From positions 1 through 23,155 of the IMG/VR virus record IMGVR_UViG_3300017962_000126: a DNA stretch of 23,155 bases; one strand, 5' to 3'. Below are positions 1 to 18,600 of the stretch, piece after piece. The notes below the pieces were generated by a model. It was not told the origin of the DNA. It made no database searches and saw nothing but the letters and a program-made list of their open reading frames with translations. The position numbers and the translations under genes are program-made. How positions within the stretch are numbered: the first letter of the stretch is position 1; each line of letters opens with the position of its first letter. This DNA comes from a virus.

Positions 1-296
1 GTCGCTCTGTGCGAAATTTAGTGGAAACTATTCCTACAGAGCGATTTTTTCAACCTCTTTTGGGGTCTGATGTGCGTTCTAGTTTATTTGACTTCGTTGA
101 TTATGGCACTGCGACCATAATTCAAGAGCAAATCTTGACTACAATCGAAAATTTCGAGCCAAGAGTGGCAAATGTTGAGGTTCAGGTCAATCCACAACCA
201 GATACCAACACTTTTGAGTGTAATATCGTCTTTGATATCATCGGTCAGGACTTTCCAGTACAAGAATTTACATTCATCCTAGAGGCAACAAGATAA
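1..296 (+). CDS. 25: Baseplate wedge protein gp25, C-terminal part (5' truncated by window edge)
   Basis: This is the end of a gp25-type protein, the small wedge subunit that with gp6 forms the inner ring around the baseplate hub and shows a lysozyme-like fold in the family. The frame is open to the window edge: codons at 3-8 (Arg, Ser) precede the GTG at 9, so that GTG is probably an internal Val and the real start lies upstream. About 97 residues are visible, against about 130 for T4 gp25. The family pattern is readable: a TxxxERFFQPLLGSDV segment (the usual 'GExxxxPxfGsdl' core), then LFDFVDYGTATIIQEQI and ENFEPRV, then a beta-rich C-terminus ending QEFTFILEATR. The stop at 294-296 lies one base before the gp6 ATG, implying cotranslation. 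Identity is by family pattern and synteny; I am confident of it. Confidence 0.9.
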   Translation, partial: RSVRNLVETIPTERFFQPLLGSDVRSSLFDFVDYGTATIIQEQILTTIENFEPRVANVEVQVNPQPDTNTFECNIVFDIIGQDFPVQEFTFILEATR

Positions 297-297
297 T

Positions 298-2178
298 ATG
301 CCTTTTACTAAGTTTACAAACCTCGATTTTGACCAGATAAGGGCGCAAATTAAGGATTATCTTCGTGCAAACTCCAATTTTACGGATTTTGACTTTGAAG
401 GGTCCAACTTTTCGGTCTTAATCGACACTCTAGCGTATAATACCTACATCACGGCATTCAATTCCAACATGATTGTCAATGAATCCTTCTTGGATTCGGC
501 AACATTGAGGGAAAATGTCGTATCGTTAGCAAGAAATATCGGATACGTACCTCGCTCCAGGAGCGCCGCTAAGGCGACTGTGACGATTAATGTAGAAACT
601 AGCGCAGACACTCCTACAGTGACCTTAGTGGAGGGTCTAGTGTGCGTTGCGTCGTCAAATAACACTAGTTTTGTCTTCTCAATCCCAGAAAGCATCACTA
701 CTACGGTGAAAGATGGGAAGGCATCATTCTCAGGTATCGAAATATATCAAGGAACTTTCCTAAAAAACATTTTTACTGTTGATGGCTCACTGGACCAGAG
801 ATTTATTCTCAATAATTCCTTCATTGACACCTCAACAATCGTTGCATATGTCAAAGGACCTAGCGAAACGGGTCTTGGAAGAGAATATTCACTGATTGAC
901 AACATCCTGAATGTCAAATCAACATCAGAAACCTATCTGATTCAGGAAGTTCAGGACGAAAAGTATGAATTGCTGTTTGGTGACGGTTTCTTTGGCAAGA
1001 AATTAGAGAATCAGTCAGTCATTACAGTCTCATACATCGTCACTGATGGTAAAGATGGTAATGGACCATCGAATTTTGCCTTCTCAGGTCGTGTTGTTGA
1101 CTCATCTAACAATGTTATTGCACTTTCCAGTGCATCTGTAACCACCACCAGTGCTGCCTCTAATGGCGGCGACATCGAGTCTATTGACTCAATCAAATAC
1201 TTTGCCCCAAGAATCTATTCATCGCAGTACAGGGCGGTTACAGCACGCGATTACGAAGCGATTATCCAATCCATCTACCCCAACACTGAGTCAGTCTCTG
1301 TTGTTGGTGGTGAAGAGTTAGACCCACCACAGTTTGGTAATGTAATCATCAGCATCAAACCAAAGAATGGTGATTATGTCTCTGACTTCGACAAGAATAA
1401 TATTCTGAGTAAGTTAAAGAATTACTCACTGTCAGGCATCAATCAGCAGATTGTAGACCTTAAGGTCCTTTATGTTGAGATTGACTCTGCAGTTTACTAC
1501 AATAATGCTCAGGTTTCTAATGTCAATGACTTGAAGTCTAGAATTGTAGATACCCTGAATACTTTCTCCACATCAAACATCAATCAGTTTGGTGGTAGAT
1601 TTAAGTATAGTAAACTTGGACAGACGATTGATAATGTTGATAATGCGATTACATCTAATGTAACCCGTGTTATTATCAGAAGAAACCTGAAAGCACTTAT
1701 TAATCAGTCTGCACAGTATGAGTTGTGCTTTGGAAATACTTTCTACAAGAAGTCTGGTGGTCTGAATATCAAGAGCACTGGGTTTACTCTTGCAGGAAGA
1801 AGTGGCACATTCTACTTCACTGATACTCCAGATGCAACTGGCAACATGGGTGTCATTTCAGTTGTCCAAGAGAATGAGGAAACTGGTGAATATAAGGTCA
1901 TTGTTAAGTCTGCAGGCACTGTAGATTATGCAAAAGGTGAGATTATCATCAATACACTTAACATCACATCTACGACAGCAGCAAACAATATTATTGAGAT
2001 TCAGGCATACCCAGAATCTAACGATGTAATCGGTCTCAAAGACCTATATCTGAGTTTTTCTGTTGCCGATAGCACCATAAATATGGTTAAGGATACGATT
2101 AGCTCTGGCGAACAGATTTCTGGCGTCGGATACAAAGTTACTTCTAGTTACTTAAACGGAGAACTAAAGAGGGTATAA
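298..2178 (+). CDS. 6: Baseplate wedge protein gp6 (baseplate J-like family)
   Basis: gp6 builds the continuous inner ring of the contractile-tail baseplate and transmits the conformational change that triggers sheath contraction. At 626 residues it is close to T4 gp6 (660). Visible hallmarks: DFEGSNFSVLIDTLAYNTY near residues 32-50, NESFLDSATLRENVVSLA near 61-78 followed by GYVPRSRSAA near 82-91, YELLFGDGFFGK from about 223, APRIYSSQYRAVTARDYEAI from about 303, and PPQFGNVIISIKP from about 343. The last two are typical of the gp6 / baseplate-J core. The remaining C-terminal half is beta-rich and less distinctive. The ATG at 298 lies one base after the gp25 stop; AGAGG at 281-285 is a rather distant ribosome-binding candidate, so coupling to gp25 is likely. 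A CATAAATA late-promoter-like motif sits inside its 3' end (2076-2083). No frameshift seen. Confidence 0.95.
   Translation: MPFTKFTNLDFDQIRAQIKDYLRANSNFTDFDFEGSNFSVLIDTLAYNTYITAFNSNMIVNESFLDSATLRENVVSLARNIGYVPRSRSAAKATVTINVETSADTPTVTLVEGLVCVASSNNTSFVFSIPESITTTVKDGKASFSGIEIYQGTFLKNIFTVDGSLDQRFILNNSFIDTSTIVAYVKGPSETGLGREYSLIDNILNVKSTSETYLIQEVQDEKYELLFGDGFFGKKLENQSVITVSYIVTDGKDGNGPSNFAFSGRVVDSSNNVIALSSASVTTTSAASNGGDIESIDSIKYFAPRIYSSQYRAVTARDYEAIIQSIYPNTESVSVVGGEELDPPQFGNVIISIKPKNGDYVSDFDKNNILSKLKNYSLSGINQQIVDLKVLYVEIDSAVYYNNAQVSNVNDLKSRIVDTLNTFSTSNINQFGGRFKYSKLGQTIDNVDNAITSNVTRVIIRRNLKALINQSAQYELCFGNTFYKKSGGLNIKSTGFTLAGRSGTFYFTDTPDATGNMGVISVVQENEETGEYKVIVKSAGTVDYAKGEIIINTLNITSTTAANNIIEIQAYPESNDVIGLKDLYLSFSVADSTINMVKDTISSGEQISGVGYKVTSSYLNGELKRV
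2076..2083 (+). promoter_or_regulatory. Possible internal late promoter (CATAAATA) upstream of the giant gene
   Basis: CATAAATA differs at one base from the T4 late consensus TATAAATA and fits the NATAAATA form reported for T4-like cyanophages. It is inside the gp6 coding sequence, 104 bases before the ATG at 2180. The same spacing (106 bases) is seen for the motif at 15500 before the next very large gene. Inside a coding region the motif could be chance, so confidence is modest. Confidence 0.4.
2166..2173 (+). promoter_or_regulatory. Ribosome binding site of the giant gene (AAAGAGGG)
   Basis: A purine-rich AAAGAGGG lies six bases before the ATG at 2180 and overlaps the last codons of gp6. 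It is one of only two good Shine-Dalgarno-like sites in the window. It supports the start at 2180, one base after the gp6 stop. Confidence 0.6.
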
Positions 2179-2179
2179 G

Positions 2180-5100
2180 ATGATAAAAACTGGATTTGAG
2201 ACGAGGGTAAAAGTTCAGCAAGTTATTGAGAACCAATTACCCGAATTTCTACGTTCCGAAAGCCCAAAGGCAGTAGACTTTTTAAAGCAGTATTATATTT
2301 CTCAGGAATATCAAGGTGCTCCAGCAGACCTTGCTAATAACCTTGACCAATATCTCAAGTTAGACAACCTCTCACCAGATGTTATCACTGGTCAGACTAC
2401 CCTGTCTTCAGATATTACTACTTCTTCTGATACAGTTGAGGTAGCATCGACGAAGGGATTCCCTGAACAGTATGGTCTGTTTAAGATTGATAGTGAAATT
2501 TTCACTTATACTGGTATCACCACAAACTCTTTCACTGGATGTGTAAGAGGATTTAGTGGTATTACTTCCTATAGGACTGATGACAATCCAGAAGAATTAA
2601 TATTCTCCTCATCCAGCAACGCAGCGCACACTTCTGGTGCCAAGGTTGAAAACCTTAGTGCTAAGTTTCTGCAAGAGTTTTATAAAAAACTCAAGTATTC
2701 TCTGACGCCAGGTCTGGAGAATGTTGCTTTCACAAGTGACTTAGATGTAAACAACTTTGTCAAAGAGGCAAGAAGTCTCTATGAGTCAAAGGGCACAGAG
2801 GAATCATATAGAATTCTCTTCAATGCACTGTATGGTGTAACTCCAAAGGTTGTTGACCTCGAAGATTATCTTCTCAAGCCTTCTACAGCAGAATATTTGA
2901 GAAGAGAAGTTGTTGTAGCAGAAAGAATTTCTGGCGACCCAACCAAACTTATTGGTCAAACTATCAAGAAATCGACTGATGAAGAAACTCAGGGGTCGGT
3001 ATCTGAAGTAGAAATCTTTACCAGGTCTGGAATTTCTACTTACTATAAGTTAAATCTGTTTGTTGGATACAACGATAGAGATTTAATCGAAGGCACTTTC
3101 AATATTCAACCAAAGACTAATGTAATCAACAGTGTTTCTGTTGGGTCTTCTATCATCACCGTAGATTCTACGATTGGTTTTAATGCTAGTGGCACTCTGA
3201 TTTCTGGTGACAATACTGTAACATACACTGGAAAGACTGTAAACCAGTTCTTAGGTTGTAGTGGTGTTGATACTGCAATTGATGTAAAGGATGAAATCAG
3301 GACCAGTGAAGTCTTTGTCGGTTATGAAAACGGAGACACCAGTAAGAAAGTCGAAATCCGTCTGACAGGCGTAATCTCTGATTTTGAATTGAAGAGTGAT
3401 GTTCTTCTTTCTTCAGAAGGTCAGAGAGTATATGTCAAGAATGTTGGTGAGAAGATTACCAATCCAGAGTCTGATGCATCATTCAAGCAAATCTTTGCAA
3501 ACTCTTGGATTTACAACACCAGCTCCAGATATCAAGTAAAGAGTATCAGTGGATCGACTTTTGAATTGAGGTCTGATATTGATAAGTCAAGTCTTGCTGT
3601 AGGTGATACTGTAGATATCCTTGAGGGTAATACGGAAACGGTTGCACACTCTGATGCTATTGTTGGTAGTATTTCTGGACATGATGTAACTCTAAACAAT
3701 CTTACAGGTTTTACTGAAGACACTGATAAGAATTACACTATCAGAAGAAAGTTAAAGACTGCTAGTAGTAGTGGCACACCAGTTTTGTATGGTGATGACC
3801 TGGTTACCAGTGATGTCCAGAATGTTTATAATGAGAAAGATGAGTACTTCTATGTTGCATCCAACTCTTTACCATCTTACGAAATCACACAAGATGTAAA
3901 GAAAGCAACACTAGCATCCGCTACCAGTAGTGCTCTGCAAGGATACAACTCCAACACTGAGAAATATACCATCCTTTCATTTGGAAGTGATGTCCCCTTT
4001 GTAACTGGCGACAAAGTATATTACTCAGCATCAGGCACTGCTCTCTCTGGATTACCAGAAGGTGAGTATTATGTCAGAGTTCTTCCTGCAAAGAATAAAA
4101 TCAAACTGTATCTGTCACACTCTCTGGTTGACATCGATACTCCTGCAGAATTTACTTCAACAACCACAACAGGGTCCCACACCTTTGTCTTAGTTGAGCA
4201 GAAAGTAGAGAAGGTATATCCTCAGCAACTTCTTAAGAAGTTTCCAGCAGAGAAAAATATCAAGATTGGAAACAAAACCGAAACTCTTCCAGGGTCCACA
4301 GGTCTTCTGGTTAATGGTGTTGAGGTATTAAACTATAAGTCTGAAGATAAGATTTACTATGGTCCTGTATCTTCTGTCGATGTATACAATGGTGGTAAAG
4401 AATATGATGTAATCAATCCACCAACAATCAAAATCTCAGCACCTGCTTCAGGAACAACTGCTTTAGTCAGACCTGTTGTATCTGGTGTTGTTGAAGATAT
4501 TATTGTTGACCCACAAAGTTTTGATATCAAAGATGTTACCTCAGTAACAATCGAAGGTGGTAATGGTAGTGGTGCAGTTTTAAAACCAATCGTAGAAACA
4601 AGATATAGAGAAGTTGAGTTTAATGGAAGCTCTTCCGTAATCGGTGGGTCTATTGACTTTACTAACGATGTTATTGTATTCCCATCAAATCACAACTTAG
4701 AGGATGGCGATGCCATTGTCTATAATAGAAATGGCAATACTGCTATCGGCATTGGAAGCTATGGTGGAAGTAATGCATCAACTGGAAACACCCTGATTAG
4801 TGGGTCTGTATATTATGCAGAGGTAGTTAATTCAACTAATATCAAACTGTACCAATCCTTCGGGTCTTATCAGTCTGGTATTAACACTGTAGGTTTCACT
4901 TCAGCAACTTCACAAGGCACTCACAAGTTTAAGACTTTTGAGGCAAGAAAGACTTTGACTTCAATCAAAGTCTTAAATCCTGGTAGTGGATATACTAATA
5001 AGAGACTGATTGCAAGTCCATCACAAGTATCAACTATTGAGGATACTATTACAACAGAAAATCATGGTTTTGCTGATGGCGATTTAGTTGTCTACACTAC

Positions 5101-8100
5101 TGCTGGCACTGTCATTGGTGGACTGACTAGTGGTAATGAGTATTATGTCATACGTGTCGATGATGATACATTCCGTTTAACCGACACTCAAACCAACTTC
5201 ACAAGAAGAAAGCACATCAATCTTACTTCTGCTGGTGTAGGATATCAAAACTTCTCATACAAAGATATCACAGTAACAATCAATGCAGAGTATAACAACT
5301 CTTCAGATAGTATTACTGCCACTCCAATCGTCAGAGGTTCTATTGAAAGTGTAAATCTTTATGAGAATGGCACTGGATATGGGTCCACTGTCCTCAACTT
5401 CCACAAGAGACCAAATGTTTCTGTGGAAATTGGAAAGGATGCAGAGTTAACCCCAATCATTTCCTCAGGTAAGATTAGCAGTGTTGTCATTGCAAATGCT
5501 GGCACTGAGTATACATCTGCTCCACTGTTGACTGTAAAGGGTGCTGGTGCAGGAGCAAAACTCAGAGCGGTTGTTTCTTCTGGTAAGATTACCAGTGTTG
5601 TCATTGTCAATCCTGGAATTGGATATGGTAGTGACACAACTATCACTGTATCTCCAAATGGAAGGAATGCTATCCTTGAAGCATCAGTAAGAGACCTTAC
5701 TGTTAATAAGTTTAGTAAGTTTGATACTGAGATTGTTATTGAAAATCCAGACAATGCTCAGGGTCTTGAGTATGCATATGTTGGATATTCAACTTCAATC
5801 GGCAATGATGTATTTGGTGATGACGGAAATCAGCACTCACCAATCATTGGATGGGCATTTGATGGCAACCCAATCTACGGTCCCTATGGATATACGGATG
5901 CTGATGATGTAAACTCTACAGTAAAACTACTTCAATCTGGATATACTGCTTCAACTTCAAATGTTGTTGATAGACCATCTTCATTCACATCAGGTTTCTT
6001 TGTAGAAGATTATCTTTACAATAATTCTGCAGACCTTGATGAATACAATGGTAGATTTGAAAAGACGCCAGAATTCCCTAACGGTGTCTATGCATATCAC
6101 GCTACAGTTGCTACATCGGATAGAGCACCACAATTCCCATACTTTATTGGAAACTTCTACCACTCACTGCCTGTTGAGCAAAACTTAAATCAGACATTTG
6201 ACTTTAATAATTCTGAATTGGTAAGAAACACCTTACCATATAAAGTGGCAGATGCTTTTGCTGATAACGACTTTATCAATGAGGCAAACGAAGCTCTTAT
6301 TCAGAATGCAGTAATCGAATCAATCAGCAAAGGGTCAGTTACTAATCTCACAGTCAATGAGGCTGGAGATGGATATAAAGTTGGTGATGTTGCAGTATTT
6401 GATAATACCGATACTAATGGTGGTGGAATCAGTGCTGATGTGAGAAGCATCAAAGGCAAATCAATCACTGACATTACAACAGTGGTTGATACTTACGAGT
6501 CGGTTAAAGTTGTATGGGAGAATGCAAATTCAGTATCTCTGCACATTGATAACAAACTCCATCAAATCTCCAATGAAGATAGCGTAACTGTTTCTGGTCT
6601 TTCAACTTTCGTTAATGGTCTTGCAAAGTCCCATGTTGTTGCAATCTCTTCAGAGACCACATATCTTGTATCAGAAGTTCCAAGCAACGCAACTGCTGGT
6701 GTTGTTACTGACATCTATGTTGCAAGAATTCCAGTAAGTCTGTCAGTTGGGTCTACTGTGGCAATCGGTACGGAGAAACTTTCCGTATTGAATATATTCC
6801 CCCAAAACAAAGTTGTAAGGACCCTGAGAGGCGTCACAGGCACCGCTCACACTGCATCTACAGAAGCAACTATCCTTGATGGAAAACTGAGCGTATCTGT
6901 CAACTTACCATACTTTGAATCATCATTGAATGAGAAAGTATACTTCAATCCAACTCAATCTGTTGGTATTGGGTCTACTGCTGGTATTGCTGTATCTTCA
7001 GAATACACTGTTGGTGTAGTAACTAGCACAATATCAATCCCAACCCAAAGCATCTATCTTCCAAATCACCCATTCAAAACCTCTCAGCAGGTAACATTCT
7101 CTAAGGCATCTGGAGCAAATCAAGTCTCAGTATCCAGCACTGAGTCTAGCTTCACCTTTGACCTCCCTGAAACACTGTTTGTAATCAATAAGTCTAAGGA
7201 TTATATCGGTCTTACAACTTCTGTTGGTTTGACCACAAACACAAATGGTCTATTCTTTAGAAGTTTCACTGCAAATAACGATGGCACTGACTATCGCTAT
7301 GCTCTTGAAACCAACCATACTCAGGTAACTGCAAAGGTTGAGAAGATTGTTTCTACAGTTTCCGTCTCAACTTCACACTCTTTAGAGAAGGGTGATACTA
7401 TTACTCTGAGCGTAAAACCAGAGCAGGTTGTTGGTATTGGATCAACTACACCAGTTTCTGTCAAATTTAATTCAACTCATAATAAGTTGCTGTTGAATAC
7501 AGTAGGATTTACCTCTGTTGGTGTTAATACAACTTCTAATGAGATTACACTGAGTAATCATAAGTTTGCTACAGGAAACAAAGTATTCTACGATTCATCA
7601 AATACTTTGATTTCTGGTCTTTCAACTGGATCTTACTTTGTTTATAAAGTTGATGATGACACAATTCAACTGGCAGAGACACATTATGATGCTGTTTCCA
7701 ACCCACCAACTGTAGTAAGTTTTGCTTCTACTGGTGGTTCTGGTCAGGAGATTTCCCCAATCAATCCACAAATCAGAATTGATAGAAATAACAGTCTCAA
7801 ATTTGACCTGACAGATTCATCTCTGGAAGATTATAAGTTTAAGATTTTCGAAGACAGTAACTATTATAATGAGTTGGTTTCTACTGGATCCACTACATCG
7901 TTTAGTGTAACTGGTGTTGGCACTGTTGGCGTCTCAACGAATGCTGCTTTGACTTTGAATTATAGTGATGGTCTTCCTTCTATCTTATACTATTCTCTTG
8001 AGAAAAGTGGATACATTACGACTGCAGACAATTCTGTCAAGAATAACTCTCAGATTTCATTCCATAATAGTGTTTATAATGGAAGTTATGAAGTCTTCGG

Positions 8101-11100
8101 TATTGGCACAACTACATTCAAGTTAGCACTGAAGAAGACTCCTGAATTCCTCTCATACACTCAGGATGATGTTGATACTCTTGAGTATTTCACAACTTCT
8201 ACTACAGCAAGTGGTGGCGTCAAGTCTATGAGAATTATCTCTGGAGGAAACAACTATAAGAAACTTCCAGAATTCTTGAGAATTACTTCTACCAATGGAA
8301 CGGGTGCTGACATTATTCCTTCATCCAATACTATTGGTAGAGTAAAGGAAGTGTCTGTTGATGATGCTGGATTTGACTTCTCTGCTGATAAGACCCTCAA
8401 TCCTGAAGCATTCATTTCGCCAACAATCAATCTCATCAATAGAGATATTGTTACAGGTATTTCTGTTGTATCTGGTGGTCAAAACTACACATCTGCTCCA
8501 GATTTGGTTATCGTAAATCCAAATACTGGTGAGGCATATTCAAGCGGTGTCTTAGAAGCAAATGTCCAAGGCTCTGCAGTATTCTCTGTTGATATTCTGG
8601 AGTCGCCTAGAGGACTTCCTCAAATCAACAATAAAGTTTATGCAATCAATAATAGTAATGGTATTGGTATTCAGAGTGCATATTCATCATCTGCTGGATT
8701 GGTAACCTGCTATATCGCAACACCAGTCCTAGGATTCTCCACCGCACCATTCAGTGTTGGCGATAAAATCTTTGTTGAGGGTATTAGAAAGTATGGCACT
8801 TCTGGAGATGGTCACAACTCAACAGACCTTGGATATAAATTCTTCACTGTCTCCTCTTACACAAATTCAAACCCTGCTAGAGTAGAGTTTAATATTTCCG
8901 ACTTTACATCAAATCCTGGTGTAGCGGTCACCGTCCAAAATCTCTATGCATCCATTATTAAGGAAGAAGATTATCCAACCTTCGAAATCACTCAGGAATC
9001 TGCAAGATTTATCATCTCCGAAAATATACTGACACTCGAAGGTGGAGTTTATGTAGAAAGAGATTTGATTATTGAAGAAGACCTTGAAGATTCTATCAAG
9101 GTATTTGGCACTTATGAACTCAGTCAAGATGAAGTAATTCGTGGAAAGTATTCTGGTGCTGAAGCAACTATCAAGTCTCTTGTTGACAATAAGGGTATAT
9201 TCAAGATTGATTATTCAACTAGAAAGAATCTTGGATGGTCGAATGATATTGGAAAACTCAATCAAGATTATCAGGTAACTCCAGATAACGATTATTTCCA
9301 AAATCTCTCTTACACCATCAAGAGTCCAATTGAATATGAGGACCTGGTAAATCCTGTAAATAGACTTCTTCATACCGCAGGACTTAAGAATTTCGCTGAC
9401 ACCGAAATTGTTAATACCACTAAAGCAGGCATTGGTACAACATCACAATCAACAACACTTTCTCTTGTCGATATTATTTCTGAGCAAAGAGTTGATACTA
9501 TTAACGATTTTGATTTGAGTGTTGATATTGATACTGTTACTAATAGTCCTGAGAAATCCAAATATATTAAATTGAAAAATAAGAAGTTAGCAGACTACAT
9601 TAGATGTCTGTCTAACAGAGTATTGTTTATGGACAATATTAGCTCACAATTCTCAAATGAAGGTGATGCTGATTTGTTTGTTGATGTTTTAAATTACAGT
9701 ATCAACGATGGTTATAATAGATTCCTGATTCAAACTATCAATCCAGATAGCACTGAAAGACAAATCTCAGAAATCATTACTCTTCCAACTGAGTCTGGCG
9801 AGATTATTACCTTTGAAAGGGGAATGCTTTCAAGTGGTGAAGAAAGAATATCTGATGTTGCTGGAAACATTTCAGAGTTTGGTGCTCTTACTCTTAGATT
9901 TACTCCAACTGAGTTGTATGATTCGGATTATGATATCAAGATTCTGAGAGACAACTTCTCCTCATCTCTTGCTGGTATTGGCACACAAACCATTGGATTT
10001 GTTAATCTGACTGGATCTAATGTTTCAGTTGCAGCAGCAACTACAGAAACTATCATTAGTGCTACAACTTCTTCTACAGAATCATTCTTCATCAATGCAG
10101 AAGTAGAGAATTTGACAACCAATGAAATGAATTATGTTGAGATGTTTGTTGACCACAACGGCACAGACACCTTCATTTCTGAATACTACCTTGACAACTC
10201 CCAATCAGAATCTTCCAACTTCATCGGCACATTTACTGCAGATATAGATTCTGGTGTTATCTCTATTGACTTTGAAAATACTGAAGGTGCTGATGTATTT
10301 GTCCGCTCCAAGATTGTTGGATTTGGCACTACTGCTAGTGGAATTGGCACTTACAGATTCTTGAGTGCTGGACAACCTGAAGGAAGTGAGAAGACAGTCC
10401 GCTTCCACAGCGACTTTGTTAATGCTTCTGGCATCACAACGATATTCTCAGTATCCAGGACTGATGTCACATCACTGAAGTCTTCTGTCAGAGTTGGTTA
10501 CGGTATAACATCTGCACTTCATCAGATACTGGTCACACATGACCAAACTGATACCTTCATTCTACAGTATCCATTCATGTCTGTGGAGAGTAATACTGGT
10601 ATCGGCACCTTTAGTTCCGATATTGATGGTGCTAACCTGGTCGTCAGATTCCACCCAGATTCTGGAATTACCGATACTATTTCTATTCAGGCATTCAGTG
10701 AGTTTATTCAGACAGAAAGTGATTTGAATAATACTCCACTCGACCTGGTTTATGGTAGCGTCAGAGAATCTCACATCGTTGCTAGTTATGATGCAATCAA
10801 TGGCGATAGAGTTAATAAGACACAATTTACTCTGAAGCATGATGATGTCCCCATCTTCCAGAAGACAATTGAGCCTTCTGATACTGATGTATTGGAATTG
10901 GGAACTGGCACATTCACTGTAGCAGACCACTTCTTCAGAACTGGTGAAAGATTGACTTACACTCCAGGGTCTTCCTTCGATGGTGCTACCGTAAGCAGAA
11001 TCCTTGATTCTTCTGGCACTGGAATATCCACTGAATTGTATGCAATCAGAGTCAGCTCAAATCAGTTTAGAGTTGCTACCAGTGAAGCAAATGCAAACGC

Positions 11101-14020
11101 TGGCACTGCAGTAACATTCAACTCTGGTGGAGACGGAAACGCCCACAGATTTGAAATGTTTAAGAAGATGGAGAAGTCGTTGGTCTCTATCAACGGTGTT
11201 GTCCAAAGTCCAATCTCATTCACTTCAGTAATTGTTGATTTGAGTGACAATGGTGGGTCCATTGGTGCAGCAGATACTTACTTCTCAGTTTCTGGAATCT
11301 CATCTATCTTACCTGGAGACCTTCTTAAGATTGATGATGAGTATGTTAAGGTTGATTCTGTCGGCATCGGCACAACAACTGATGGTCCAATCACTGGCAC
11401 TGGGTCAGTCAATCTTATTAAGAGTATCCGAGGATTTGTAGGATCTTCGGCAACTACACACACTGATGGCACTGAGGCAAGAGTTTACCTTGGGTCATTC
11501 AATATTGTAGGAAGTGATATTCACTTCACTGAAGCACCAAGAGGTAATACTGGTGCTAACCGCGACTCTAGCAACTTACCATTCCCAGAAGCGTCATTTG
11601 GTGGTCGTGTTTATCTGAGAAATGATTACACAACTAACAAAATCTTTGATAATATCTCTAAAGATTTTACTGGAATTGGTGCAACTTACAGACTGACAGT
11701 TGGTGGAGCAAATACCACTGGTATTGAAACTGGAAGCGGCGTCCTCTTTATCAATGATGTATTCCAAACTCCAACAACTACAAACAACCTTGGAAACAAC
11801 TACAGTTTTACTGAGTCGTCAGGTATCACCAGTGCAGTATTCACGGGCATAACCAATGATAGTGGAAATTTGATTCTTTCTGACTATGATGTCAATCAAA
11901 ATCAGTTGCCAAGAGGCGGCGTAATCGTATCTCTTGGATCTACATCTGGTCTTGGATTTGCACCTCTGGTTGGTGCATCAGTAACAGCAGTTGTTGGTGC
12001 TGGCGGATCTATTGTATCGGTTGGTCTTGGAGCAACTGATATTGTTGGATCTGGTTACAACGGAATTGTTTCTATCGGCATCAGCGTATTCGAAGAAAAT
12101 CATGTTGGTGATGTTGCATCTATCTCCGCTACTGTCGGTGCTGGCGGCACACTTTCATTCACAGTTGGTGCTGGTGGCACAGGATATTCAAATCCATCAG
12201 TATTTGTATCTGAGCCATCATACGAAAATCTTGAGGTTATAGGTGTTTCTAGACTTGGAATAGGTGCTACTACAGAAACTGGTGTAGGACTTCTCCTTTC
12301 ACTCGAAGTTGGTGCAGCATCAACTAGCGTTGGTATTGGGTCAACCTTGTTTGAAGTAACTTCATTCAAGATTACCAGACCAGGTTATTCCTTTAGAAAG
12401 GGTGATGTATTCAAACCAGTTGGTCTTGTAACTGATAGAAACCTTTCAGCACCAGACAATGACTTCGAATTGACCGTTATTGATACATTCACGGATTCAT
12501 TCTCTGCATGGCAGTTTGGTCAACTCGACTTTATCGACTCAATCAAGGATCTTCAAAACGGAAGTAGGACTAGATTCCCACTTTACTACAACAGTCAGTT
12601 GGTAAGTTTTGAAACTGACCCAGATGATGCACAGTCTTCTGAAATCGACCTTGATTCTATCTTGCTGATATTCGTCAATGGTGTAATACAAGAGCCAGGA
12701 GTACATTACAGTTTCGAAGGTGGCACATCATTCACATTCACTGAAGCTCCTGATGCGGATGAGAATATTGACATCTTCTTCTACAGAGGCACCAGAGGCA
12801 CTGACAGTTCTGAAGTTGAAGTTAATGAAACCATCAAGATTGGTGATATTGTAGAAATCAGAAAGAGTAATTCTATCGATGATACTGTTGCCCAAGACCC
12901 AAGGACTGTTTATAGCATTCCTGCATCAGATAGACTGGAAACAAACATCTATCCTGGACCTGGCGTTGATAGCACCAACTTCAAACCACTTTCTTGGACA
13001 AAGCAGAAAGTAGACATCAATGTCGGTGGCGAATACATCTACAAGTCTAGAGATTCCATTGAAACTCAAGTCTATCCAACAGCAAGAGTTATTTCTGACT
13101 TCTCAACAACTGACACTGAAATTTTCCTGGATGATGCCAGATTCTTTAATTATGAGGAAAATGAATCCGCAATCGTCATCAATGAATTTGATGCACTGAT
13201 AATTACAAATAGTAATCCAGTTGCTGCTGCAATCACCGCTGTTGTTTCTGCTGCTGGCACAATTTCATCACTCGATATTGTTAGTGGTGGGTCTGGTTAT
13301 GTTGGGTCTTCTACAGCAATCTCAATCGCCGCACCTAAGTCCATTGGTGTTGGTGTTGGCACTACTGCCATTGCAACCGCAACGGTCACTGACGGTGCTA
13401 TCACTGCTGTAACTATCACAAACGGCGGTATTGGATACACAGGAACAAATCCACCAAAAGTTATTGCACCAATTCAGGTTGCAACTCTTGAGAATATTGA
13501 GGATGTCACGACCGTATCAGGTTTCGCTGGTATTGTCACTGGTATCACAACTACTGCTGGTATCGGCACCGACCTGGCACTTCAATTCTTCCTCTCCTCC
13601 TCAAGCACTTTTGTTGGTCTTGATACTGGTTATCCAATCGTTATTTCAAATACACATATTGGATCTGGAGTAACTTCTATTGATAATCATGACAACTTCA
13701 CCGTCGGAATTGGTACAACATTTGTTGACAACATCTATAAGATTCATGAGTTAAATCTTCCTTCTGGGTCTGGTGGAAGTGTTGCAAACATCAAGGTCAA
13801 TATCTTGTCCACAACTGATGTTACAGGTCTTTCCACAGACGGTACAAATGTTGGCACATTCTCATGGGGTAGATTGTCAGGATTTACTAGAGGCACTTCG
13901 CCAATTTCCATCGGAGTTACTGGTCTGACTATTGACTCTGGATTGTCCACATTCCCATCGATCCAGCGTCGTGGATACGGTTTGAGAAACAACGGATCAC
14001 TCAAAAAGGATCTAGGATAG
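2180..14020 (+). CDS. Giant modular baseplate/tail protein with YHYH domain, at the gp7 position
   Basis: A 3946-residue virion protein between gp6 and gp8, where T4 has gp7 (1032 residues). Residues 1-62 carry NQLPEFLRSESPKAVDFLKQYY, and 197-214 read ARSLYESKGTEESYRILF. I recall both as the start of gp7-like baseplate proteins in many myoviruses. Next come mixed beta repeats: 'GD-V-Y' units (about residues 605, 836, 960, 1628, 1731, 1793, 2916), GxGY units (about 1055-1150, 1385, 2012-2130, 3270-3350, 3681-3766), RG..H units (about 99, 1528, 3046) and a tandem beta-sandwich pair (2635-2846). A YHYH domain lies at about 1205-1326 (GWAFDGNPIYGPYGY at 1224, AYHAT at 1305). YFQNLSYTIKSP and VNRLLHTAGLKNFADTEI at about 2375-2405 form another conserved gp7-like motif. 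The C-terminus ends IQRRGYGLRNNGSLKKDLG. No signal peptide or membrane segment. Role in the outer baseplate or fibre-like arms is inferred. Confidence 0.9.
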   Translation: MIKTGFETRVKVQQVIENQLPEFLRSESPKAVDFLKQYYISQEYQGAPADLANNLDQYLKLDNLSPDVITGQTTLSSDITTSSDTVEVASTKGFPEQYGLFKIDSEIFTYTGITTNSFTGCVRGFSGITSYRTDDNPEELIFSSSSNAAHTSGAKVENLSAKFLQEFYKKLKYSLTPGLENVAFTSDLDVNNFVKEARSLYESKGTEESYRILFNALYGVTPKVVDLEDYLLKPSTAEYLRREVVVAERISGDPTKLIGQTIKKSTDEETQGSVSEVEIFTRSGISTYYKLNLFVGYNDRDLIEGTFNIQPKTNVINSVSVGSSIITVDSTIGFNASGTLISGDNTVTYTGKTVNQFLGCSGVDTAIDVKDEIRTSEVFVGYENGDTSKKVEIRLTGVISDFELKSDVLLSSEGQRVYVKNVGEKITNPESDASFKQIFANSWIYNTSSRYQVKSISGSTFELRSDIDKSSLAVGDTVDILEGNTETVAHSDAIVGSISGHDVTLNNLTGFTEDTDKNYTIRRKLKTASSSGTPVLYGDDLVTSDVQNVYNEKDEYFYVASNSLPSYEITQDVKKATLASATSSALQGYNSNTEKYTILSFGSDVPFVTGDKVYYSASGTALSGLPEGEYYVRVLPAKNKIKLYLSHSLVDIDTPAEFTSTTTTGSHTFVLVEQKVEKVYPQQLLKKFPAEKNIKIGNKTETLPGSTGLLVNGVEVLNYKSEDKIYYGPVSSVDVYNGGKEYDVINPPTIKISAPASGTTALVRPVVSGVVEDIIVDPQSFDIKDVTSVTIEGGNGSGAVLKPIVETRYREVEFNGSSSVIGGSIDFTNDVIVFPSNHNLEDGDAIVYNRNGNTAIGIGSYGGSNASTGNTLISGSVYYAEVVNSTNIKLYQSFGSYQSGINTVGFTSATSQGTHKFKTFEARKTLTSIKVLNPGSGYTNKRLIASPSQVSTIEDTITTENHGFADGDLVVYTTAGTVIGGLTSGNEYYVIRVDDDTFRLTDTQTNFTRRKHINLTSAGVGYQNFSYKDITVTINAEYNNSSDSITATPIVRGSIESVNLYENGTGYGSTVLNFHKRPNVSVEIGKDAELTPIISSGKISSVVIANAGTEYTSAPLLTVKGAGAGAKLRAVVSSGKITSVVIVNPGIGYGSDTTITVSPNGRNAILEASVRDLTVNKFSKFDTEIVIENPDNAQGLEYAYVGYSTSIGNDVFGDDGNQHSPIIGWAFDGNPIYGPYGYTDADDVNSTVKLLQSGYTASTSNVVDRPSSFTSGFFVEDYLYNNSADLDEYNGRFEKTPEFPNGVYAYHATVATSDRAPQFPYFIGNFYHSLPVEQNLNQTFDFNNSELVRNTLPYKVADAFADNDFINEANEALIQNAVIESISKGSVTNLTVNEAGDGYKVGDVAVFDNTDTNGGGISADVRSIKGKSITDITTVVDTYESVKVVWENANSVSLHIDNKLHQISNEDSVTVSGLSTFVNGLAKSHVVAISSETTYLVSEVPSNATAGVVTDIYVARIPVSLSVGSTVAIGTEKLSVLNIFPQNKVVRTLRGVTGTAHTASTEATILDGKLSVSVNLPYFESSLNEKVYFNPTQSVGIGSTAGIAVSSEYTVGVVTSTISIPTQSIYLPNHPFKTSQQVTFSKASGANQVSVSSTESSFTFDLPETLFVINKSKDYIGLTTSVGLTTNTNGLFFRSFTANNDGTDYRYALETNHTQVTAKVEKIVSTVSVSTSHSLEKGDTITLSVKPEQVVGIGSTTPVSVKFNSTHNKLLLNTVGFTSVGVNTTSNEITLSNHKFATGNKVFYDSSNTLISGLSTGSYFVYKVDDDTIQLAETHYDAVSNPPTVVSFASTGGSGQEISPINPQIRIDRNNSLKFDLTDSSLEDYKFKIFEDSNYYNELVSTGSTTSFSVTGVGTVGVSTNAALTLNYSDGLPSILYYSLEKSGYITTADNSVKNNSQISFHNSVYNGSYEVFGIGTTTFKLALKKTPEFLSYTQDDVDTLEYFTTSTTASGGVKSMRIISGGNNYKKLPEFLRITSTNGTGADIIPSSNTIGRVKEVSVDDAGFDFSADKTLNPEAFISPTINLINRDIVTGISVVSGGQNYTSAPDLVIVNPNTGEAYSSGVLEANVQGSAVFSVDILESPRGLPQINNKVYAINNSNGIGIQSAYSSSAGLVTCYIATPVLGFSTAPFSVGDKIFVEGIRKYGTSGDGHNSTDLGYKFFTVSSYTNSNPARVEFNISDFTSNPGVAVTVQNLYASIIKEEDYPTFEITQESARFIISENILTLEGGVYVERDLIIEEDLEDSIKVFGTYELSQDEVIRGKYSGAEATIKSLVDNKGIFKIDYSTRKNLGWSNDIGKLNQDYQVTPDNDYFQNLSYTIKSPIEYEDLVNPVNRLLHTAGLKNFADTEIVNTTKAGIGTTSQSTTLSLVDIISEQRVDTINDFDLSVDIDTVTNSPEKSKYIKLKNKKLADYIRCLSNRVLFMDNISSQFSNEGDADLFVDVLNYSINDGYNRFLIQTINPDSTERQISEIITLPTESGEIITFERGMLSSGEERISDVAGNISEFGALTLRFTPTELYDSDYDIKILRDNFSSSLAGIGTQTIGFVNLTGSNVSVAAATTETIISATTSSTESFFINAEVENLTTNEMNYVEMFVDHNGTDTFISEYYLDNSQSESSNFIGTFTADIDSGVISIDFENTEGADVFVRSKIVGFGTTASGIGTYRFLSAGQPEGSEKTVRFHSDFVNASGITTIFSVSRTDVTSLKSSVRVGYGITSALHQILVTHDQTDTFILQYPFMSVESNTGIGTFSSDIDGANLVVRFHPDSGITDTISIQAFSEFIQTESDLNNTPLDLVYGSVRESHIVASYDAINGDRVNKTQFTLKHDDVPIFQKTIEPSDTDVLELGTGTFTVADHFFRTGERLTYTPGSSFDGATVSRILDSSGTGISTELYAIRVSSNQFRVATSEANANAGTAVTFNSGGDGNAHRFEMFKKMEKSLVSINGVVQSPISFTSVIVDLSDNGGSIGAADTYFSVSGISSILPGDLLKIDDEYVKVDSVGIGTTTDGPITGTGSVNLIKSIRGFVGSSATTHTDGTEARVYLGSFNIVGSDIHFTEAPRGNTGANRDSSNLPFPEASFGGRVYLRNDYTTNKIFDNISKDFTGIGATYRLTVGGANTTGIETGSGVLFINDVFQTPTTTNNLGNNYSFTESSGITSAVFTGITNDSGNLILSDYDVNQNQLPRGGVIVSLGSTSGLGFAPLVGASVTAVVGAGGSIVSVGLGATDIVGSGYNGIVSIGISVFEENHVGDVASISATVGAGGTLSFTVGAGGTGYSNPSVFVSEPSYENLEVIGVSRLGIGATTETGVGLLLSLEVGAASTSVGIGSTLFEVTSFKITRPGYSFRKGDVFKPVGLVTDRNLSAPDNDFELTVIDTFTDSFSAWQFGQLDFIDSIKDLQNGSRTRFPLYYNSQLVSFETDPDDAQSSEIDLDSILLIFVNGVIQEPGVHYSFEGGTSFTFTEAPDADENIDIFFYRGTRGTDSSEVEVNETIKIGDIVEIRKSNSIDDTVAQDPRTVYSIPASDRLETNIYPGPGVDSTNFKPLSWTKQKVDINVGGEYIYKSRDSIETQVYPTARVISDFSTTDTEIFLDDARFFNYEENESAIVINEFDALIITNSNPVAAAITAVVSAAGTISSLDIVSGGSGYVGSSTAISIAAPKSIGVGVGTTAIATATVTDGAITAVTITNGGIGYTGTNPPKVIAPIQVATLENIEDVTTVSGFAGIVTGITTTAGIGTDLALQFFLSSSSTFVGLDTGYPIVISNTHIGSGVTSIDNHDNFTVGIGTTFVDNIYKIHELNLPSGSGGSVANIKVNILSTTDVTGLSTDGTNVGTFSWGRLSGFTRGTSPISIGVTGLTIDSGLSTFPSIQRRGYGLRNNGSLKKDLG
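5468..5606 (+). repeat. Direct DNA repeat within the giant gene, 114-base period
   Basis: A 25-base segment starting GGTAAGATTA and ending TTGTCATTG occurs at 5468-5492 and again at 5582-5606 with one mismatch. The period is 114 bases, or 38 codons. It encodes the SGKI[ST]SVVIxN core of two successive GxGY units, making this pair the most similar at DNA level that I noticed. It may be a fairly recent tandem duplication. Confidence 0.7.
5792..6160 (+). other. YHYH domain inside the giant protein
   Basis: Protein residues about 1205-1326. The segment begins DGNQHSPIIGWAFDGNPIYG and continues PYGYTDADD. It then has GVYAYHAT (the YH element, here AYHA rather than the canonical YHYH) and closes with FPYFIGNFYH. 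Order and spacing match the YHYH family found in bacterial and phage proteins, whose biochemical function is not established to my knowledge. It is embedded between beta repeats, which suggests an inserted functional or binding domain. No gap or frameshift flanks it. Confidence 0.85.
10082..10717 (+). repeat. Tandem pair of divergent beta-sandwich-like repeats in the giant protein
   Basis: Two protein-level repeats occupy roughly 10082-10330 and 10474-10717. Both show D-H-[ND]-[GQ]-T-D-T-F-I, then a Tyr-rich strand, then IGTF[TS][AS]DID, then a hydrophobic strand ending in Phe plus an acidic or His residue, then a final beta strand. They resemble each other clearly in residues but not in DNA, so the duplication is old. 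Confidence 0.7.
11990..12230 (+). repeat. Gly-rich GxGY repeat pair (C-terminal third of the giant)
   Basis: Two units read A-V-V-G-A-G-G-S-I-V-S-V-G followed by IVGSGYNG, and A-T-V-G-A-G-G-T-L-S-F-T-V-G followed by GGTGYSNP. They belong to the same family as the units near 5345-5690, 8217-8600 and 13223-13478. Confidence 0.65.
13223..13478 (+). repeat. Gly-rich GxGY repeat pair near the C-terminus of the giant
   Basis: Two successive units: AVVSAAGTISSLDIVSGGSG then YVGSS, and ATVTDGAITAVTITNGGIGY then TGTNPPKVIAP. Each has the pattern 'a.V..G.I..v.I..GG.GY....P.v.i..P', so the units are about 40-45 residues long. This is the clearest form of the repeat in the window. Confidence 0.7.
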
Positions 14021-14048: not shown

Positions 14049-15602
14049 ATGGCGGCAATTGTAACAGATCAGTTTAGAATATTAAACGCGGCTAACTTTA
14101 TTGATTCCGTTTCTGATACTTCTAACTCATATTATGTCTTCGTTGGACTGGCAAATCCAACAACTTCTGGGTATGGTAGGGATACGGATTGGGATTCTGA
14201 CACTCCCAATCCTACGGATAATATCGACTATATCAACTTTGTCGGTGACTCGATGATGTTTGGTAAGAAAGTAACCTCTAACAATGCTAGGCGTGTTGTT
14301 AGAAGAGTTGACTGGGTTAGAGGGACGAAATATGAAATGTATCGTCATGACTATAGTCTGACAAACTTGTCTCCAATATCTAAAGCATCTAGACTTTACG
14401 ACTCAAACTATTATGTAATGAATAGTGAGTTTAAAGTATATGTTTGCTTAGATAATGGATCTTCAGGTATTAGCACAACAGGAAATGCTTCTGTAGACGA
14501 ACCCACATTTACAGATTTGGAGCCTTCATCAGCAGGCACCAGTGGTGATGGTTATACCTGGAAATATTTGTTTACTGTCACCCCAAGTGACATTATTAAA
14601 TTTGACTCTACGGAGTATATCGCATTACCAAGTGATTGGGCAACATCAACCAATGCTCAAGTATCTGCAGTAAGAGATAATGCTAACTCTGATGTAAATG
14701 AGAATCAACTGAAGAAAGTTTATATTGAAGAAAGAGGTGCTGGATACTCTCAGGGGTCACATGAAGTTAATATTCTAGGTGATGGTAGTGGTGCAAAAGT
14801 TGTCGTTGAAGTTAATAGCTCTGGTCAGATAACCAACGCTGTCATTTCTTCTGGCGGTAAAGGTTATACTTATGGAATGGTAGACTTAGGGTCAATCAAT
14901 AGCAACTCCAGCACAAAGGCAGAGTTGATTCCAATCATCCCACCATCAAAGGGTCATGGATATGACATCTACAGAGAGTTGGGTGCCGATAAAGTCTTGA
15001 TTTATGCAAGATTTGATGATTCAACCAGAGACTTCCCAATAGATACCAAGTTTGCACAGATTGGTATTGTTAAGAATCCAACTTCTATTGGGTCTACATC
15101 AGTCTATACTGATAATGAATTCTCATCGTTGAGTGCTATCAAATTCTCTTCGGTAACTGGGTCTGTTTCTATTGGTGAAAGAATCAGTCAGTCTATTGCT
15201 GATGAGACTGCCAAGGCGAAAGGTTTTGTATCAGCATATGATACAGAAACGAATGTCCTTAAGTTTTTCAAGGATAGGTCACTGTATCTGAATCAGACTA
15301 ACTTTGACCATGTAGATTATGTCGGTGTATCAACTTTGTCCAAAGTCTTAGACTTTGAATCATCGGCAAATGCTGTTACTGGAACTGGTGGTTTCTCTGG
15401 GTCTATCGATACTGGATTTACTGGTATTAGCACCAATCCTACTGGCAACAAACTTATTTCACTTGGTATGCAATTTACAAACGGGATTGCCTCACCAGAG
15501 ATAAATAAAGGGTCAGGAGATGTAATTTATCTTGATAACCGCCCAGTGATTTCAAGAAATTCTAGACAAAAAGAAGACGTTAAAATTATCCTGGAATTCT
15601 AA
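14049..15602 (+). CDS. 8: Baseplate wedge protein gp8 (cyanophage-type, extended)
   Basis: gp8 is a wedge subunit that binds gp7 and helps fix the outer baseplate in T4. The family signature is clear. YYVFVGLANPTTSGYG opens the protein. SMMFGKKVTSNNARRVVRRV leads to VDWVRGTKYEMYRHDYS near residues 82-100. YYVMNSEFKVYVCLDNG is followed by DGYTWKYLF at 167-175, matching the typical gp8 element 'DGYxWKYxY', and then KFDSTEYIALPSDW. Length is 517 residues against 334 in T4 gp8. The extra length is mostly C-terminal and includes two GxGY units (GAGYSQG and GGKGYTYG, about residues 230-282) like those in the giant neighbour. It is transcribed from, or reinforced by, the TATAAATA at 14022. Three bases separate its stop from the next ATG. 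Start chosen by the family N-terminus and the ORF limit. Confidence 0.93.
   Translation: MAAIVTDQFRILNAANFIDSVSDTSNSYYVFVGLANPTTSGYGRDTDWDSDTPNPTDNIDYINFVGDSMMFGKKVTSNNARRVVRRVDWVRGTKYEMYRHDYSLTNLSPISKASRLYDSNYYVMNSEFKVYVCLDNGSSGISTTGNASVDEPTFTDLEPSSAGTSGDGYTWKYLFTVTPSDIIKFDSTEYIALPSDWATSTNAQVSAVRDNANSDVNENQLKKVYIEERGAGYSQGSHEVNILGDGSGAKVVVEVNSSGQITNAVISSGGKGYTYGMVDLGSINSNSSTKAELIPIIPPSKGHGYDIYRELGADKVLIYARFDDSTRDFPIDTKFAQIGIVKNPTSIGSTSVYTDNEFSSLSAIKFSSVTGSVSIGERISQSIADETAKAKGFVSAYDTETNVLKFFKDRSLYLNQTNFDHVDYVGVSTLSKVLDFESSANAVTGTGGFSGSIDTGFTGISTNPTGNKLISLGMQFTNGIASPEINKGSGDVIYLDNRPVISRNSRQKEDVKIILEF
15500..15507 (+). promoter_or_regulatory. Possible internal late promoter (GATAAATA) upstream of the DUF4815 gene
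   Basis: GATAAATA fits NATAAATA with one mismatch to the T4 consensus. It is within gp8, 106 bases before the ATG at 15606, almost the same offset as the motif at 2076 before the giant gene. Chance occurrence in coding DNA cannot be excluded. Confidence 0.4.
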
Positions 15603-15605
15603 AAA

Positions 15606-18600
15606 ATGCCACAAAAAACGAATCTCAATATAAACCCCTATTATGACGACTTTGACAAGGGAGATAATTTCTATAGGGTTTTATTCAAACCAGGATTCCC
15701 TATCCAGGCTAGGGAGTTAACGACTTTACAGTCAATACTGCAAGACCAATTAGAGTCTTTCGGTAGTCATATGTTTAAAGAGGGGTCGATGGTGATCCCA
15801 GGAAACATAAACTATGATTCCGAATATTACTCAGTAAAGATTAATGATGAGCATCTTGGCATTGATGTTTCAGTTTATGCCGACAGTCTGATTGGAAAGA
15901 GACTGAAGGGACAAACTTCTGGGATTGTTGCAGTAGTTGATAGTTACGAATTAACGTCAGAAGCAAAGGGAATTACTGCTCTGACACTGTTTGTAAAATA
16001 TACAAGCTCTGGCACAGATAATTCTGTTGAGTATTTCACTGATGGTGAAATTCTTTTAACACAAGATGCTTTCACTTATGGAAACACAACCATTAGTGAA
16101 GGTGAAAGCGTAGTTACTCTGGTAGAAGAAGATGCGTGTGCTAGAGGCACAGCAGTTTCTATTGGAGAAGGTGTATATTTTATTAGAGGCACCTTTGTAA
16201 CTGTTAATAAGGACAAACTGGTCCTTGATGCATACACTGGAAACTCATCATACAGAGTTGGTCTTACAATCTTAGAAGAGTTTGTAACTGCAAAGGATGA
16301 TGCTTCACTGTATGATAATGCAAAAGGATATTCTAACTATGCAGCACCAGGTGCTGATAGACTGAAAATCTCAGCAACCTTATCCAAGAAGAGTCTGACT
16401 GACTTTACTGATAAGAGTTTCGTTGAGTTGATTAGAATTGATGAAGGTGAAATCAAGAAGTTACAGGATAAGTCAAATTATAATTTAATCAGAGACTACT
16501 TTGCTAAGAGAACTTACGAAGAGTCTGGGGACTATGCTGTAGGTAAGTTTGGTGTAGAGGTCAAAGAATCTCTGAATGATGGCATCTCAAATGAAGGTGT
16601 ATTCAACAGCGACCAAACTACAGAGCAAAACAATACTCCTTCAGACGATTTACTTTCAATCAAAGTATCTCCTGGTAAGGCATATGTAAGAGGATATGAT
16701 ATTGAGTCTGTTGGTACAACTATCCTTGATGTAGAGAAACCAAGAGATACTCAAAGTGTAAGAAATTCTCTTGTCCCATTTGAGTTTGGGACCTTGATGA
16801 GAGTCAATAATGTATTTTCGACTCCTTTCATTGGTGTTAATAACGCAAACAACACTGTTGAGTTGCGTAGTCAAAGAAAGGCATCTGGCACACCAACCTC
16901 TGGGGCAGGAGTTCAAGTAGGTGAAGCTAGAGTATACTCATTCAGTGTATCTGATGCCCCTCATACTGGCGACACTACTGAGTGGGATTTGTATCTGTTT
17001 GATGTCCAGACATACACCAGACTGACAATCAATAATTCGATTGCAACTGGCGATGTCCCCAATACATCATATGTCAGAGGTGTAAGCAGCGGTGCAAGTG
17101 GATATGTTACGACTTATGGTGGCACTACAGAAGTAACCCTGACTCAAACTTCTGGGTCATTCATTGTTGGTGAGCAAATTCTCATCAATGAAAGAGAAGA
17201 CCTTTCAAGGTCTATTCAGTCAATCAAAGTTTATGGCATTCAGGATGTCAAGTCCGTTTATCAAGACTCAAGTACTTTCTCAGGACTATCTGTAGACTTT
17301 GCTGCTGATACCGTATTGCAGAGTTCTCTGCCCAAGTCATTCAGCATCACTGATACTGTAACTATTACAAGTGGTGGTAATGTAACTTCTCCAGGAAATT
17401 CTTTCACTGGTATCAAAACTGATACTATTGTCAGATATCAAATTTCTGGTCTGAGCACAGAAACTTATAATAGAGTTGAATCTGTCGCTGCTGATGGGTC
17501 ATCGATGACTCTAGTATCGATACCTAATGTTGATGGTATTTGTAGTGGAGCACTTCCTGCAGCAACTGAAAGTGTTACATTTGCTCTTGGACAACCTTTA
17601 GTTGGTGATAAGGGTGGTCTTTATGCAAACATTCCTTCAGAGGATGTTTCTGCAGTAAGCCTTGCAGATTCAAACCTGATTGTAACAAAGCAAATCACTG
17701 GAGAAACAACAGATAGTGACGGACAACTTGTAGTCCCAATCAGCTCTGTTGGAATTACCAGTGCACTGTTTGAATCTTTTGACGCTGAAAGATACAGCAT
17801 CGTCTATAGTAATGGTGCCATTGAAGATTTGACATCCGACCAGTTTAGTTTAGATTCTGGTGGATCTCAGATTACCTTTACTGGTCTGACAGCATCACAA
17901 TCTAATGTTGTAGTCAATACAACAGTCAAGAAAATTAAAATCAAGAATAAGACCAAAGAATTTAATAGAAGTGCAAAGATTAATATCACCAATACATCTT
18001 CGGGTGTATCTACCAGCACTTCAGGTCTTACAACCAGCTTCTTCTATGGCACCAGAGTTGAAGATAAAGAAATCTCTCTGAATGTCCCCGATGTAGCAAA
18101 TGTTGTTGCAGTATATGAATCTCTGAATTCATCTTCACCTTCTCTTGATTCTTTAGACTTCCCATCAGGACTAGCACTCAATACAAATTCTATTCTTGGT
18201 GAGAAAATCACTGGTAGAACCAGTGGTGCCATTGCTCAAGTAGTTACAAGAGCTTCGGCAACCAATGTTGAGTTTGTATATCTCAACTCCAAGCAGTTTG
18301 TTGTTGGAGAAATTGTTGATTTTGAAGAATCCGACATCTCATCAACAATTCAAACAATCAATCTTGGCAACTATCAGAATATTACTAATAAGTATACTCT
18401 TGATAAGGGACAAAGAGAGCACTACTATGATTATTCTAGAATTGTAAGAAAGACTGATGGTTATATTCCATCACACAGACTTCTGGTAATCTACAACAAC
18501 TTCACAGTACCTTCTAATGATGCTGGTGATGTCTATACTGTAGATTCATATGATGATGAAAGATACACAAGCGATATCCCAGCATTGCCTAGTGGTGTAA

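Follow-up and report, generated by a model that had tools for sequence, protein, structure and literature searches.

Genes of the window and its giant relatives

The window, a 23,155-base virus record, begins with a gp25 (sheath initiator) gene that is incomplete at the window edge (positions 3..296, on the + strand like every window feature given below; PF04965, E = 1.6e-11). It is followed by the gene for the baseplate wedge protein gp6, the partner of gp7 (298..2178; phrog_219, E = 3.5e-202; Pfam Gp6-like_1st, E = 6e-18), and by a giant open reading frame for 3946 amino acids (2180..14020), which runs from ATG to TAG in one intact frame; the longest stop-free stretch in 100 shuffled windows was 187 codons. 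Downstream lie gp8, which contains one GxGY module (14049..15602; phrog_438, E = 1.3e-159; PF09215), and a separate gene for the VrlC/DUF4815 virion protein, distinct from gp7 (15606..22679; PF16075, E = 2e-58); in relatives, its syntenic counterpart bears the annotation VrlC or VriC. A reading made from the sequence only had held that a single 11.8-kb gene in the gp7 position replaces gp7. The size of the gene and its place between gp6 and gp8 were borne out, but nothing is replaced, since the gene is gp7. Its product matches phrog_2885 (“baseplate wedge subunit”) with 3845 bits over residues 2 to 3282, and it is syntenic with the annotated gp7 of P-SSM2. The order gp25-gp6-gp7-gp8 found in the window is kept from Desulfovibrio phage 7757, with a gp7 of 586 amino acids, up to the giants, and T4 itself retains gp6-gp7-gp8.

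Almost no near match to the window was found at the DNA level; among named relatives, the nearest one found is Synechococcus phage S-SRM01, whose protein has 49% identity over the full length. Giant genes of this kind are already in GenBank, and several are named gp7 or baseplate wedge initiator. Annotated giants in the gp7 position are those of P-SSM2 (5195 amino acids), P-HM1 (4446), Syn9 (6076), S-SM2 (4156), S-SRM01 (3895), S-SM1 (6180), and S-RIM2 (6378). The giant form is ordinary in cyanomyoviruses, and the window protein is one of the smaller ones. The gp7 proteins of P-SSM2, S-SM2, P-HM1, and S-SRM01 (phrog_2885) have the same position and architecture. Identity to P-SSM2, S-SM2, and S-SRM01 is 31 to 49% over most of the length, with motif spacing within about 230 residues; outside the core, P-HM1 shows no more than distant similarity. 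These giants differ mainly in their C-terminal extension, at one site of which P-SSM2 has about 1,100 more residues.

In the Syn9/S-SM1/S-RIM2 group, gp9-like and further wedge genes lie between gp7 and gp8 (L221:22391-27781; L222:24303-30001); the window is without them. The gp7 of S-SKS1 (L008:7320-19712) is broken into four overlapping open frames, which suggests frameshifts in the deposited sequence, and there are annotation gaps there.

Core pieces and their T4 gp7 counterparts

In the window protein, NQLPEFLRSESPK lies at residue 18, YESKGTEESYRILF at residue 201, YFQNLSYTIKSP at residue 2372, and RLLHTAGLKNF at residue 2395. These positions confirm the earlier account of N-terminal motifs and motifs at residues 2375 to 2405, with ~2100 residues between and ~1500 after them. 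The two core motifs, KGT and HP, are about 2,170 to 2,197 residues apart, and about 1,530 to 1,540 residues follow.

A contiguous compact-core profile, made from nine compact or near-compact gp7 cores with none from giant proteins, aligns with the window protein as three blocks in collinear order, residues 8 to 67, 164 to 357, and 2268 to 2410 (E = 6.6e-7, 1.8e-12, and 9.7e-7; search size Z = 1000). Core piece 1 (residues 8 to 67; 2201..2380) holds the N-terminal helices and corresponds to profile positions 4 to 63. Piece 2 (residues 164 to ~310; 2669..3109) holds the KGT helix and the domain V region (profile positions 61 to 231). Piece 3, or motif B (residues 2293 to 2413; 9056..9418; profile positions 206 to 315), runs from DNDYFQNLSYTIKS to HTAGLKNF and is conserved in 13 phages. 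These collinear blocks, together with the variable motif spacing described below, support the proposal that an ancestral gp7 core was stretched by module insertion. In this marine cyanobacterial virus, about 2,000 residues of small repeat modules were inserted into the small conserved gp7 core and divide it into three pieces, whereas in T4 and many other viruses the core is nearly uninterrupted. The sequence-only reading of an expanded gp7 is largely right.

When an alignment of twelve cyanophage N-termini (A1) was searched against all PDB sequences, the best hit was T4 gp7 (residues 730 to 759, E = 3e-4), pairing T4 SYDFYSTKGIEASYKFLFKVLYNEEVEIE with ARSLYESKGTEESYRILFNALYGVTPKVV of the window. 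The compact-core profile also matches T4 gp7, at residues 645 to 758 (E = 3.6e-9). For an alignment of the compact family (A4) searched against 177,635 PDB sequences, the best hit was again gp7, from a Klebsiella phage (E = 2.7e-10) and from T4 (E = 1.2e-7), covering T4 residues 647 to 832 and, weakly, 865 to 895. Both motifs occur in T4 gp7 in the same order, KGT with 33.0 bits and HP with 11.1 bits, above the best null scores among 501 sequences (4.8 and 4.5 bits, respectively), so that the motifs are related to gp7-like proteins. The counterpart of motif B, T4 KIKSNLPSSRWKSDVIRFVHPVGF against window TIKSPIEYEDLVNPVNRLLHTAGL, is a weak match at these 11.1 bits, and the motif-B alignment, which is too diverse for a collection scan, found no match in the PDB when used alone.

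A structural search with the modeled 393–amino acid compact gp7 of IMG/VR locus L207, encoded between gp6 and gp8, placed T4-type gp7 on top (E = 1e-6; the same proteins as with A4), a fold match that is for this compact homologue and for an AF2 model with a mean pLDDT of 54, poor outside the core helices. After gp7, the model matches wedge proteins of other contractile systems. A direct Pfam scan of the window protein found no Gp7_helical, Gp7_5th, or Gp7_6th (the T4 helical domain and domains V and VI). T4 gp7 hits all of them, and the compact gp7s are also without hits, the models being narrow to T4 relatives. Against PF23786 (Baseplate_wedge), the window protein scored 13 bits, below the curated cutoff of 27, which compact relatives pass. 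Overall, the window protein and T4 gp7 (phrog_964; 5IV5 and 5HX2) have in common the core helices, the KGT helix, the domain V region, the HP segment, and the gp6 and gp8 neighbors. T4 gp7 differs in having a 640-residue N-terminal part and domain VI, which was undetected in the window, a motif spacing of 149 amino acids, and no GxGY modules.

Insertions, extension, and the range of sizes

Three sites carry additional residues: site A separates the first helices from the KGT helix, site B separates domain V from motif B, and the third is the C-terminus, past motif B. Insertion A (residues 68 to 163, ~96 amino acids; 2381..2668) holds one STxGFP module and is absent from the compact core; it is about 480 amino acids longer in Syn9 and S-CREM1. 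Insertion B, with approximate boundaries at residues 311 and 2292 (~1,980 amino acids; 3110..9055), holds GxGY, DGDxVxY, and STxGFP modules and a YHYH domain and is absent from T4 and compact gp7. Plain self-BLAST found no repeats; the repeats are only weakly alike, and profile searches were needed, which found 10 GxGY, 6 DGDxVxY, 2 STxGFP, and 4 VNGV units. The beta repeats and the YHYH domain that had been placed between the motifs were recovered, the latter as PF14240 at residues 1197 to 1311 (5762..6112; E = 1.6e-26 in Pfam and 2.1e-30). The GxGY module is common to neighboring virion genes: the one in the window gp8 lies at 14715-14801, and L207 gp8 (L207:2730-4241) has two. A split of gp7 inside insertion B in some phages, considered from PHROG positions (19630 and 18802), was rejected; S-SM1 and S-RIM2 encode gp7 whole.

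The YHYH domain is a predicted zinc-dependent hydrolase (PMC7824862), in which a histidine triad and an aspartate would make up the metal site. In the window, its motif reads YAYH, and in 46 aligned rows it is mostly YAYF; all rows but one have YAY[F/H/Y], the second place is never H, and the first histidine is lost in all 46 and the second usually. As the name-giving histidines are mostly lost, a conserved catalytic role in this protein becomes less likely. A structural search with a model of the region (pLDDT 65) yielded nothing usable, the best E being 0.13, and a search of PDB sequences with the region gave no match.

The C-terminal extension (residues 2414 to 3946; 9419..14017) is nearly absent in ME01, whose gp7 ends about 60 residues past motif B. 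In DSL-LC02, an in-frame TAA occurs just after motif B (L011:15223-15231), an ATG follows two codons later, and the extension is an open reading frame of its own; this interruption is either a natural gene fission or a sequencing error. Within the extension, BLAST breakpoints in P-SSM2, S-T4, Sf-CH8, and ACG-2014f mark a length-variable site at about residues 3270 to 3320 (11987..12139), where relatives carry 170 to 1,118 extra residues that match tail-fiber PHROGs. The site may be a host-range hot spot. A conserved C-terminal block with a VNGV module (residues 3431 to 3638; 12470..13093) is detected by the “cterm” profile in most giant gp7s.

A constant spacing of ~2100 residues between the core motifs, which would speak against module insertion, was found only in close cyanophage relatives (2191 to 2342). 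Across the family, the spacing varies from 81 to 2,792 residues in proteins of 316 to 6,378 amino acids, a graded series running from phage C48C1 (81; 316 amino acids) through T4, others with 171 to 180, and HTVC008M (597) to the window and Syn9 (2792). In IMG/VR scans, 139 loci had both motifs in one open reading frame, 175 to 2342 residues apart and collinear in all. The compact gp7s (Desulfovibrio phage 7757, Ochrobactrum phage OC, L207, and C48C1; PF23786) have 316 to 631 amino acids, a spacing of 81 to 180, and no modules. That the core is contiguous in shorter homologues was confirmed with a 260–amino acid query, the HTVC008M gp055 core with its inserts left out, which aligns as a single piece with the proteins of Desulfovibrio phage 7757 (E = 5e-27) and Ochrobactrum phage OC (E = 3e-23). 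HTVC008M gp055 lies between gp6 and gp8; like its pelagi- and methylophage relatives, it has both core motifs, the synteny of the window, and GxGY modules in insertion B, but at 1016 amino acids it is much shorter than the window protein, and no YHYH domain was found in it. None of the eight proteins with spacing below 200 has a GxGY module; between the motifs, these modules number 0 to 6 up to a spacing of 972, 3 to 17 in cyanophages, and 8 in the window protein. This rise with spacing (Spearman 0.55) is only descriptive because the sequences are not independent.

Several annotations differ from these assignments. HTVC008M gp055 (L097:33435-36485) belongs to phrog_3465, “head closure Hc2,” yet is a gp7. 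Matches to gp7 cores were also seen for families phrog_701, 4406, and 19630, all filed under head and packaging, and for 26741, filed as unknown. In Ochrobactrum phage OC, gp6 (L133:2106-3989) is labeled “T4-like gp7,” and two adjoining genes have the same label.

Role of gp7 and alternative readings

It is established that gp7 links a pair of gp6 molecules within a helical core bundle and trifurcation (PMC10457771, PMC6300606). We consider it very probable that the giant gene is a true gp7, in which a core of ~300 residues was split, inserts grew at A, B, and the C-terminus, and the role in the wedge remained as in T4. The core (N-terminal helices, KGT helix, domain V region, and SY-IKS-HPxG segment) would join two gp6 copies, and by analogy with the T4 and XM1 structures it would still form the wedge, while in the cyanophage lineage small beta modules would have been added at internal loops A and B and after the core to reach 3946 residues. 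XM1 gp17, P2 gpI, and TssG are wedge orthologues that, according to the literature, have the same role in a (gp6-like)2-gp7-like heterotrimer; XM1 gp17 is shorter (242 residues versus 3946).

A very different view has been published: cyano- and pelagimyophages lack T4 gp7, for which VrlC apparently substitutes (PMC7029224, 2020), in keeping with an earlier list that has gp7 only in the non-cyanophage core (PMC3037559, 2010). The giant gene would then be an unrelated structural protein, and PHROG indeed files several of these gp7 families under head and packaging. We judge this highly improbable, given the core homology to T4 gp7 in both sequence and fold searches and the presence of VrlC as a separate gene in the same window, with only gp8 between the two. 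The occurrence of gp7 and VrlC in one gene cluster contradicts the published absence of gp7 and resolves its reported lack in abundant marine cyano- and pelagimyophages. Resemblance of both core motifs to gp7 by chance or convergence might be suspected from the HP motif, which alone is short and weak against T4, but has next to no chance of being true: all 139 loci and every named phage have the motifs in collinear order, synteny is retained, and null scores reach at most 4.8 bits.

The size change could also have run the other way, from an ancestral giant to compact gp7s by repeated module loss. Modules are scattered across many lineages, and in the gp6 tree (82 rows) the root is uncertain because T4 and the other outgroups are on long branches. 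In this tree, however, the giants form one clade (SH-aLRT 99) nested in shorter forms, beside pelagi- and methylophages of spacing 445 to 597; the T4, Desulfovibrio, Ochrobactrum, C48C1, L155, and L207 lineages are all without modules, and short forms are also the rule in other wedge orthologues, for example XM1 gp17 (PMC10457771). Loss is thus improbable, and the compact-to-giant direction, as judged from the sequences, would be based mainly on the breadth of compact forms across many separate lineages. Closer to the preferred reading, and given slightly less than an even chance, is one in which the protein is gp7 as proposed, with inserts that serve mainly as structural spacers, making the baseplate larger or double-layered, rather than as receptor-binding or enzymatic parts. 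The loss of most of the name-giving histidines in the 46 YHYH copies and the occurrence of the same modules in gp8 are in line with it; the tail-fiber matches at the length-variable site of relatives, typical of host-range parts, point the other way.

In the expanded gp7 that we favor, the inserts might form arms that reach outward and bear host-contact parts or take their place. In T4 gp7, the fiber signal reaches the wedge through loop 841-862, whose movement resembles that of a jump rope (PMC8406304). In alignment A4, insertion B corresponds to a place between T4 residues 844 and 865 and thus falls in this loop, through whose position host contact might be relayed to the wedge. In Vibrio phage XM1, the 242–amino acid orthologue of gp7, gp17, anchors 12 spikes through its loops 80-106 and 201-242 (PMC10457771), which by their order would resemble sites A and B or C. 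From these two analogies, we think that the baseplate is enlarged outward by the inserts, at loops that in other systems dock peripheral proteins. A further, speculative step, which we hold to be possible but rather unlikely, is that gp7 loops are a general docking site of contractile tails, to which separate spike or fiber proteins attach in other systems, and that cyanophages built their peripheral host-contact apparatus into gp7 at the jump-rope loop, as one chain; if so, receptor contact and wedge switching would occur in a single gp7 chain.

No structure of a giant gp7 and, in open-access PMC papers, no description of a split core were found. The gp7 assignment unites protein families that are currently listed under head closure, head and packaging, unknown, or baseplate, and it shows that insertions can enlarge a core component of the machine more than tenfold while it keeps its place. 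Defined loops are marked where host-contact parts may be carried. The virions of S-CREM2 contain the protein encoded between gp6 and gp8, with 91 peptides (PMC10665884).
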